Origin: Treponema sp.
GTDB lineage: Bacteria; Spirochaetota; Spirochaetia; Treponematales; Treponemataceae
Assembly (NCBI GenBank): GCA_017449265.1
Contig: JAFSJW010000081.1
Location: 1-58,627, forward strand
DNA length: 58,627 nucleotides
Direction of reading: 5' to 3'
Shown here: positions 10,468-12,715 of the stretch, piece after piece
Numbering within the stretch: position 1 is the stretch's first letter
Layout: every line of letters begins with the position of its first letter
Program-made: the position numbers and the translations under genes
The notes under the pieces: generated by a model
What the model saw: the letters and a program-made list of their open reading frames with translations, nothing else
Database searches by the model: none
Told to the model about the DNA's origin: nothing

Positions 10468-11448
10468 ATGCAGATTATTTCTGATGAGAGTATCGCTGAG
10501 TTCAAAAAATTCTTGGATTCCCATGAATTCTTTTTCATAATAGGCCACAAAGAACCAGACGGAGATGCAATATATAGCTGTCTCGGCATGGCAGAAATTC
10601 TTCAGAAATTGAATTTGCAATACCAGCTTCTTTCCGCAGGACCTTTCAAACGAAACGACATAAGGGACAAAGCAGGTCTTTTCACAAACACGCCAGCTTT
10701 TCTCTCGGAGCCTGAAAGGAAAAAGACAGGTCTTATTATACTTGACTGCTCGGAAATGGCCCGTTTGGGTGATATTGACGGAGATTTGCGGAATCTTGAC
10801 ACATTCATTATAGACCACCACAAAACGGCTGATGTAAAGTCAAGCTGCATAATTGATTCGTCCTCCCCTGCCACAGCCTGCCTTGTCGTTCAGCTGTACG
10901 AGAAAATTATTGGAAATTTGTCCGAAACGGCAGCAAAGAACCTTTTCTTCGGAATCTCAACGGACACAGGCTTTTTTCGCTTTCTGAACGAGGACTCGGA
11001 GAATGTGTTCGAGCTAGTTGCCAGGCTTGTCCATGCCGGCGCATCCCCCAGAAAGACATATTCAAAAATGACGGGCGGAAAGGCTTTCAGCACAAGGAAG
11101 CTTTTGGGCATTCTTCTTTCCCGCGCGGAACTATATTATAACAACAAGCTTGCCGTCACATACGAAACTATGGAGGACACAAAAAAATACGGGCAGGAGG
11201 GGCGCGACTCGGACTCCTTATATTCAACCCTTCTATCCACGGAAGGAGTGGAAGCAGTGCTTTTCGCACGCCAGGACACCGAGTTCAGCTGCACGGCAGG
11301 GCTACGCTCACTGGAAAGCGTCGATGTAAGCACAATCGCGGCAAAATTCGGCGGAGGCGGCCACAAGAACGCGGCAGGTCTTAGCGTGGAGGGAAAACTA
11401 GAAAACATCATTCCGCTTATCTGCAAAGAATTCGCAAAAGTTCTTTAA
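10468..11448 (+). CDS. nrnA: DHH-family phosphoesterase, NrnA-like
   Basis: 326 aa from ATG 10468 (GGAG five bases upstream). The DHH/DHHA1 family motifs appear in order: GHKEPDGDAI near residue 27 (motif I), ILDCSE (motif II), DHHK (motif III) and the C-terminal GGGGHKNAAG of DHHA1. NrnA proteins degrade short RNA oligonucleotides and dephosphorylate pAp, and some members cleave pGpG or cyclic dinucleotides. That matters here because a diguanylate cyclase is encoded at 36495. An upstream extension of the frame runs through the preceding terminator stem and is not real. Symbol is by family resemblance. Confidence 0.85.
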   Translation: MQIISDESIAEFKKFLDSHEFFFIIGHKEPDGDAIYSCLGMAEILQKLNLQYQLLSAGPFKRNDIRDKAGLFTNTPAFLSEPERKKTGLIILDCSEMARLGDIDGDLRNLDTFIIDHHKTADVKSSCIIDSSSPATACLVVQLYEKIIGNLSETAAKNLFFGISTDTGFFRFLNEDSENVFELVARLVHAGASPRKTYSKMTGGKAFSTRKLLGILLSRAELYYNNKLAVTYETMEDTKKYGQEGRDSDSLYSTLLSTEGVEAVLFARQDTEFSCTAGLRSLESVDVSTIAAKFGGGGHKNAAGLSVEGKLENIIPLICKEFAKVL

Positions 11449-11450
11449 GA

Positions 11451-11500
11451 AAAAATGAACTGTTCGGAAACAAGAGATTTCCAAACAGTTCATTTTTTTT
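11451..11500 (+). terminator. Strong terminator after nrnA
   Basis: AAAATGAACTGTT (from 11452) pairs with AACAGTTCATTTT, with an inner GGAAA/TTTCC extension, and ends in eight T. Confidence 0.85.
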
Positions 11501-11604
11501 ATTCGGAGCTGTCCGATAAGTTTTGAATGTGGCAGTTAGCGTTCCCAAGCTTCGCACGAGAACCTCACCCACCGCTTTTAATACTTATTTGCCAGCCTTT
11601 TTTT

Positions 11605-11655
11605 TGCATAAAAACTGCAAGATTTTGCAAGTTTTTGCAAGAAATTGCAAGATTT
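11605..11655 (+). promoter_or_regulatory. Four 10-bp repeats TGCAAG-N4, candidate activator-binding array
   Basis: TGCAAGATTT, TGCAAGTTTT, TGCAAGAAAT and TGCAAGATTT occupy 11616-11655 with exactly 10-bp spacing; a degenerate TGCATAAAAAC precedes them at 11605. The array lies about 73-112 bases upstream of the predicted start of the sigma-54 promoter, the region where enhancer-binding proteins normally sit. Phased A/T runs could also bend the DNA. Confidence 0.7.
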
Positions 11656-11701
11656 TTCTCAAAAATCTCTAAAAACACCCCCAAAAAGCATATTTTTCGG
11701 C

Positions 11702-11718
11702 TTGGCACGGAAATTGCT
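11702..11718 (+). promoter_or_regulatory. Sigma-54 (RpoN) promoter
   Basis: TTGGCACGGAAATTGCT matches the -24/-12 consensus TGGCAC-N5-TTGCW, with GG and GC 12 bases apart. The predicted +1 is near 11728, just before the GGAGG ribosome site at 11731 and ATG at 11741. Confidence 0.85.
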
Positions 11719-11740
11719 AATAGATTTTTTGGAGGCTTTT

Positions 11741-12715
11741 ATGCAAAAAATTTATCTGGAAGAAATCCCCTTCCTAGTTGAAACCAAAAAACTATCTTAC
11801 AGGGATGCCACATACATAATCTGGGAGAAGCTCTATTCAAAACCAAAGCAATTCGGGCTAAATGATTTTACCGAAGACGAGCTTAGCGATTTCTTGATTT
11901 CGTTCATCGAAAAAATAGAAACCATATTGGAAAATTTTCTGAAAAACAGAAGTCCTATTTCGTTTCAGAATTATATAAAAAAATGTATCATCAACTCAAA
12001 GCAGTCATGGTTCAGGAAAAAAATCATAAAAAAAGTAAATGACCAGTCCATAGAATCTTTCTCGCAGAATGAATCAGAAGAAGACATTCACAAATATGAA
12101 ATCAAAGAGACTTGCGAAACTTCTGTAAATGAGAGAAGAAAATTTCAGGAAACGCCTCCCAGGAAGCACAAGCATGTTGCCGAAATGGCGGCTTTAGTCC
12201 TTACGATGAAAGCCTGTCAGGATGTAAACGACTCTCTTATCGAGAAAGTCGCGGGGTTCACCGGTTTTGAAAAAGATTTCATTTACGACAAGGTTCAGGA
12301 GCTTAAAGAAAAAAACAACGAAAAAAGAAAAAGGCGTGAGCTTCTTATCCGCCGCCGGGACAATTCGTTTTATTTCCGAAGACGGTACCAGATTGAAATG
12401 TCCAGGGTAGAGGAAGGAACAAAGACACAAAATCTTCTTGAAGAAAAATTCAACATGCACGGAAAAAACTGGGAGAAAAACAACGAAATCCTCACAAGGA
12501 CAAGTTCCGCCTCCCCGTCCGCCGAACAGATTGCAGTCACGCTCGGAATACGCCCGCGACAAGTGCGTTTTTACATATCGCACATAAAGCAGCCTGAAAA
12601 CGCTGAGAAAATCAAGGACATGGTAAAAAAATCAGAGGCACTGAAAAATGACGCGCCGGAAAACAATACCGGCGGAGACATCGCTCAGAAGCCAGACGTG
12701 AGTGACGCTATGTAA
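11741..12715 (+). CDS. Unknown protein with C-terminal helix-turn-helix, sigma-54 controlled
   Basis: 324 aa from ATG 11741 (GGAGG six bases upstream). Soluble, highly charged, no signal or membrane segment. Residues 1-100 are helical, ending SKQSWFRKKIIKK. Residues 105-140 are acidic and probably disordered, and 145-250 are helical with a very basic stretch KRKRRELLIRRR (196-207). Residues 258-283 (SPSAEQIAVTLGIRPRQVRFYIS) look like a helix-turn-helix. The arrangement loosely recalls a sigma-like or other DNA-binding regulator, but I cannot assign a family. Its last 31 bases overlap the convergent DUF456 gene. The sigma-54 promoter and repeat array suggest it is made only under a specific signal. 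Confidence 0.75.
   Translation: MQKIYLEEIPFLVETKKLSYRDATYIIWEKLYSKPKQFGLNDFTEDELSDFLISFIEKIETILENFLKNRSPISFQNYIKKCIINSKQSWFRKKIIKKVNDQSIESFSQNESEEDIHKYEIKETCETSVNERRKFQETPPRKHKHVAEMAALVLTMKACQDVNDSLIEKVAGFTGFEKDFIYDKVQELKEKNNEKRKRRELLIRRRDNSFYFRRRYQIEMSRVEEGTKTQNLLEEKFNMHGKNWEKNNEILTRTSSASPSAEQIAVTLGIRPRQVRFYISHIKQPENAEKIKDMVKKSEALKNDAPENNTGGDIAQKPDVSDAM

Follow-up and report, generated by a model that had tools for sequence, protein, structure and literature searches.

A likely RpoN-to-sigma relay in Treponema: a conserved sigma-54 box, a predicted sigma-70-type factor and a helically phased repeat array

Which form of RNA polymerase transcribes the gene P0001 of a Treponema species, what kind of protein does this gene encode, and what is the role of the 10-bp repeats upstream of its promoter? 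These questions are raised by a 58,627-nucleotide stretch of DNA (contig JAFSJW010000081.1; hereafter the window, meaning the whole stretch analysed) from the assembly GCA_017449265.1, the source genome (3.02 Mb, 111 contigs, 86% complete). A first-pass annotation, made from the letters alone, had proposed a near-perfect sigma-54 promoter with four phased repeats at enhancer distance, driving an unknown helix-turn-helix (HTH) protein. The present analysis indicates that P0001 resembles sigma-70-type factors, in particular those of the extracytoplasmic function (ECF) kind. Judging from sequence and predicted fold, P0001 is probably an alternative sigma factor that is likely transcribed by RpoN and would thereby form a relay below RpoN. 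The coordinates of all features are collected in Table 1.

The promoter element turned out to be better than near-perfect: it matches TGGCAY-N5-TTGCW with 0 mismatches, begins 38 bp ahead of the ATG and, by its position, predicts a transcription start at about 11729. In the window, TGGCACGGAAATTGCT is the sole match of this quality; six further matches carry two mismatches, which is the number expected by chance. Upstream DNA was gathered for 144 distinct P0001 orthologues, and for 150 once six more from the array search described below had been added. Among the 148 orthologues with at least 100 bp upstream, the box TGGCAY-N5-YTGCW lies within 150 bp of the start without mismatch in 103 and with one mismatch in 18 (121/148 in total), and is missing in 27, four of which (L023, L147, L150, and L151) carry a strict box farther out. 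Shuffles of these 148 upstream sequences give 0 exact boxes and 0.6 at one mismatch or fewer, and the reversed sequences give none (0/148). The strict pattern occurs near the gene in 94 of the 144 orthologues, is found neither on the opposite strand nor in reversed form (0 each), and recurs three times elsewhere within the 308 kb of orthologue loci; the box-to-ATG distance has a median of 54 bp. Three close genomes of T. denticola size, all in the one-mismatch class, carry TTGCAC-N5-TTGCT at this site and thus a changed GG, while their sister L161 retains the GG. Strict sigma-54 boxes were also observed upstream of two of the 11 distant relatives read outside the family (L271 and L275), hinting that the wiring may predate the family.

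A homologue of P0001 was detected in 41 of 59 genomes by a genus-weighted search, and in 137 of the 145 genomes of the family by a profile search, usually as one strong locus; the nearest named homologue, from Treponema sp., is 65% identical. The presence of rpoN, on which the first-pass annotation depended, could be established for the source genome as well as for 141 of the 145 family genomes; the four genomes without a hit are 59-82% complete. Because the -24/-12 box is conserved, RpoN likely transcribes the P0001 gene, which would place RpoN above P0001. As separate observations, the T. pallidum-sized genome G078 (1.1 Mb, 99% complete, family g39) has kept rpoN and has no match to the P0001 gene, and one orthologue (L016; G028:C4, ~74.8-75.8 kb) is broken by stop codons, with the sigma-54 box and TGCAAG words still upstream.

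The statement that P0001 matches no family does not hold, since the protein resembles sigma-70-type factors. The accompanying hunch of a sigma-70 likeness was borne out in substance, although not in placement, as the region 2-like domain comprises residues ~4-100 rather than 150-300. The predicted fold of residues 1-104 is that of sigma region 2, and it is this fold, together with a profile-profile match, and not a curated sequence cut-off, that supplies the region 2 required of the ECF group. Neither the best family member (38.4 bits) nor P0001 (15.6 bits) reaches the curated cut-off of TIGR02937 (42.9 bits), and just one of the 32 members of the family alignment matches the Pfam region 2 model (best E 0.0021); the alignment excludes L016 (broken), L032 (unsure start), L010 (the same as P0001), and P0006 (a fragment). 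Compared with ECF sigma4, the two HTH candidates score 82% and 94%, although HTH domains readily give unspecific matches. P0001 is not RpoS: neither an RpoS nor an RpoD model matched it (NCBIfam at E<=1, Pfam at E<=10). Broader searches were less telling: the family profile found only weak matches among PDB sequences (RhlR first, E 0.0072, then homeodomains, with sigma-A at 0.5), a full-length fold search returned uninformative coiled-coil matches only, and peptide patterns of P0001 matched 50 stretches in the genome contigs, 0 of which were confirmed.

With ECF (group 4) sigma factors, e.g., E. coli RpoE, P0001 shares the order of its domains, a region 2 fold, as predicted, followed by a candidate HTH of region 4 type. 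However, ECF sigmas consist of sigma2 and sigma4 only, in ~200 aa, whereas P0001, with 324 aa, is longer by ~120 residues, contains a second HTH as well as long helices, scores below the cut-offs, and is preceded by a sigma-54 box (comparison set: 19 of 20 fetched loci, without the masked L243). With respect to the layout of ECF sigma loci, the open reading frame (ORF) after the P0001 gene is convergent; no search for an anti-sigma gene was made. Alternatively, P0001 may have kept a sigma-like fold and yet act as a sigma mimic, or as an ordinary two-HTH DNA-binding regulator under RpoN control. Rapid divergence, with family scores under the cut-off, and the surplus of ~120 residues over the ECF sigmas of related genomes would be in line with this idea, as would the weak matches of two members to the PhyR sigma-like model (best E 0.013) and of six members to the LuxR/GerE model (best E 0.0015). 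On the other hand, the region-2 stretch is covered by many weak, phylum-wide matches, the sigma2 and sigma4 matches are collinear, and D46, part of what we take to be the core-binding motif, is invariant (32/32). A mimic or plain regulator is given a minor chance, and a genuine alternative sigma factor is preferred.

P0001 would probably not be the only sigma factor below RpoN. The source genome contains six strict boxes, three of which are well placed, namely those at the P0001 gene, at a group-2 (RpoS-like) sigma gene, and at an Hsp20 small heat-shock gene (L046 1501-2012; G000:C22:8504); the remaining three are located inside reading frames or ahead of no evident gene. The group-2 sigma gene (L218 1006-1848; G000:C106, ~33.8-34.3 kb) encodes 281 aa with regions 1.2, 2, and 4 above the Pfam cut-off and region 3 just below, and its product matches RpoD/RpoS models below their equivalog cut-offs. 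In a survey of 29 of 30 sigma loci (L226 was left out), the group-2 gene is boxed in all seven genus genomes with a fetched locus, compared to 0/10 RpoD-sized and 0/4 FliA-sized sigma genes; eight other sigma loci from order-level genomes comprise two with a strict box, two with a weak one, and four with none. The enhancer-binding activator gene that the first-pass annotation recommended looking for has two candidates, L002 and L003, each with a sigma-54 activation domain that includes GAFTGA/GAYTGA. L002, which is of the NtrC type and is paired with a sensor kinase, is the likeliest driver of the relay; in L003, no DNA-binding domain was detected. L003 (1147-2208; G000:C52), an activator-type AAA protein, is located downstream of an ORF resembling an ABC-transporter substrate-binding protein. 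A further candidate, L004, was rejected, as the match to its AAA domain is split in two and no GAFTGA loop is visible in its sequence.

With a family-wide box, rpoN, and a second box at the group-2 sigma gene, the suggested cascade from RpoN to a secondary regulator is the likeliest wiring. RNA polymerase with sigma-54 would transcribe the P0001 gene from the conserved box, after the NtrC-type activator L002, together with its paired kinase, had opened the promoter by ATP hydrolysis, the role that Rrp2 has in Borrelia. P0001 might then join core polymerase via its region 2 and read promoters with one or both of its HTH domains, while the group-2 (RpoS-like) sigma gene, under the same type of box, would likely constitute a parallel arm.

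The array was confirmed as well, with its four TGCAAG words spaced by exactly 10 bp: the 36-bp phased pattern is matched with 0 mismatches, and shuffles yield 0 matches even at three mismatches. In the source assembly, TGCAAG pairs at 10 or 11 bp comprise three at the P0001 locus and two single pairs elsewhere, and a degenerate triplet (up to two mismatches) exists at the P0001 locus only; this near-confinement led us to reject a dispersed genome repeat. Of 200 genus genomes, ten contain TGCAAG triplets with 10/11-bp steps, and in nine of these, including the source genome, the array adjoins the P0001 gene; the exception is G171, whose triplet falls in an open frame of 179 aa, and G226 carries an additional array at another place. 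TGTTGG triplets are present in 3 of 196 genomes, in all three at the P0001 gene. In one genome (G023:C170 and C199), the assembly is probably broken inside the repeat array at the P0001 locus, with the second TGTTGG site probably lying across this break, and arrays may therefore be under-counted in draft genomes. Orthologues differ in whether they have the repeats: arrays were scored in 12 of 16 members of the source clade and in a separate clade of four with an inverted word (quick tree, 149 of 150 rows), but most orthologues retaining the box have no clear array. A word statistic reaches p~0.01, its floor with 100 shuffles, in 21 of 146 upstreams and p<=0.05 in 35 (source locus 0.02), several of the lower rows probably being due to chance; a simpler lag test gives p<0.01 in 13 and p<0.05 in 26 of 92 (source locus 0.005).

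Is the array the enhancer of the P0001 promoter, bound by the sigma-54 activator itself, as first proposed? Its location, from 87 bp (array start) to 52 bp (array end) ahead of the -24 element, its helical phasing, and its inverted orientation in one clade, which enhancers tolerate, would be compatible with such a role. However, no array accompanies the other two well-placed boxes of the source genome, at the RpoS-like sigma and Hsp20 genes, which are expected to need the same few activators. Since the array also occurs just once in the source assembly, it is unlikely to be a general activator site, and its lack at most boxed orthologues likewise makes an enhancer function improbable. Its location is normal for a control site, which need not be an enhancer. 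A LytTR/AtcR-type binder was dropped because AtcR is described as confined to T. denticola and T. putidum (PMC12070737).

The repeat unit itself bears on two further explanations. A fit to 15 arrays, without L189, gives the 10-bp unit TTG[CT][AT][AG]GATT, in which the two Gs are most constrained, with 5 to 25 fitted sites per array on one helical face. The steps comprise 133 tens and 31 elevens out of 172, with varying spacers, although the fit favors 10/11-bp steps through its penalties. A slippage-prone minisatellite without function could account for the near-identical tandem units of some species (e.g., L058 and L011), but hardly for mixed steps, for locus specificity in 9/10 and 3/3 genomes, or for persistence across a deeply divergent clade, and is the least probable of the explanations considered. 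Alternatively, phased A/T tracts might create a static bend that aids looping, the G-containing words being incidental. In the main clade, where such a bend is possible, A-tracts are phased (p<=0.05) in 10 of 11 arrays tested, again without L189, and words in 11 of 11. In the clade of four, by contrast, A-tracts are phased in 0/4 and words in 3/4, and control upstreams pass the A-tract test in 7/25 cases compared to 2/25 for the word, which was derived from the same arrays. As constraint on the fitted unit peaks at its Gs, DNA shape is an unlikely explanation; the array draws independent support from the exact-word genome searches and the word statistic.

Most likely, then, a regulator that binds cooperatively, and that may be P0001 itself, uses the array as an accessory site, which would operate in two clades and, within the source genome, at the P0001 promoter alone. 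A single site at a protein's own gene is typical of autoregulation, and the array-binding protein may be regulated in this way. MraZ-type proteins bind 10-bp direct repeats, and their sites likewise place several half-sites on one helical face; this is an analogy only, as the repeat unit differs. A far-reaching version, which we put forward as speculation with a modest chance of being right, is a spirochete-specific, sigma-54-switched class of two-HTH sigma factors, whose C-terminal module would read the phased array of its own gene; the array would act as a one-sided DNA ruler of 5-25 units against which the sigma factor counts its concentration, in parallel to the RpoS-like arm.

With regard to the surroundings, the gene upstream of P0001, which we take to be nrnA-like, is followed by a hairpin that was not listed by a terminator scan. 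Of the 145 orthologue loci that offer 400 bp or more of upstream sequence, 94 have a homologue of this upstream gene ahead of the P0001 orthologue on the same strand. The P0001 gene apparently stands alone, since the following ORF runs towards it and overlaps its end.

Table 1. Features at the P0001 locus (window positions)
Feature	Position	Strand	Basis
Upstream gene, DHH phosphoesterase-type	10468..11448	+	
Imperfect hairpin, then T run; likely terminator of upstream gene	11456..11500	+	read from sequence
Partly matching fifth unit, TTGCATAAAA, just upstream of array	11604..11613	+	unit fit
Helically phased array of four TGCAAG words (11616, 11626, 11636, 11646)	11616..11651	+	pattern search
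Sigma-54 promoter element TGGCACG-N4-TTGCT (-24/-12), TGGCACGGAAATTGCT	11703..11718	+	pattern scan
GGAGG, likely ribosome-binding site	11731..11735	+	sequence
CDS of divergent sigma-70-like protein P0001, 324 aa	11741..12715	+	ATG at 11741, stop ends 12715
Sigma region 2-like domain (residues 4-100)	11750..12040	+	predicted fold and profile-profile match
First HTH, sigma region 4-like (residues 145-205)	12173..12355	+	profile comparison
Second, C-terminal HTH, sigma region 4/LuxR-like (residues 258-303)	12512..12649	+	profile comparison

The closest known system is found in Borrelia, where RpoN drives RpoS with the participation of Rrp2 and of BosR, which binds direct repeats at the box (PMC3037356); a title in its reference list reports Rrp2 to act without an enhancer. 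Another paper describes T. denticola Rrp2 as a predicted sigma-54 activator that is unstudied (PMC12070737). The locus shares with Rrp2-RpoN-RpoS (PMC3037356, PMC12655853) the spirochete host, a sigma-54 box on the gene of a sigma-70-type sigma factor, an NtrC-type activator, and a direct-repeat site beside the box, that of Borrelia being TAAATTAAAT, bound by BosR. The likely RpoN-to-sigma relay of Treponema would nevertheless be distinct: P0001 is divergent and ECF-like instead of RpoS, the RpoS-like sigma appears as a second, parallel target, and the repeat unit and helical array differ. In seven listed genomes of one family with Borrelia-like size (f7, 1.0-1.8 Mb, presumably Borrelia relatives), no match to P0001 was found.

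Among the open-licence PMC texts, we found no description of the P0001 family or its promoter, nor, among open-licence texts, an account of a Treponema RpoN regulon. RpoN-to-sigma relays in spirochetes are already known from Borrelia; the new part is the undescribed second sigma-like protein with its phased array. The boxed gene, which 137 of 145 genomes of the family possess, and the boxed RpoS-like sigma gene provide a small, concrete candidate regulon, and the phased arrays, with 5 to 25 fitted sites on a single helical face, form a natural series. The arrangement in Treponema looks like the Borrelia plan with two downstream sigma factors, one of them new, and the wiring of RpoN to a downstream sigma suggests an old spirochete habit with lineage-specific second sigmas.
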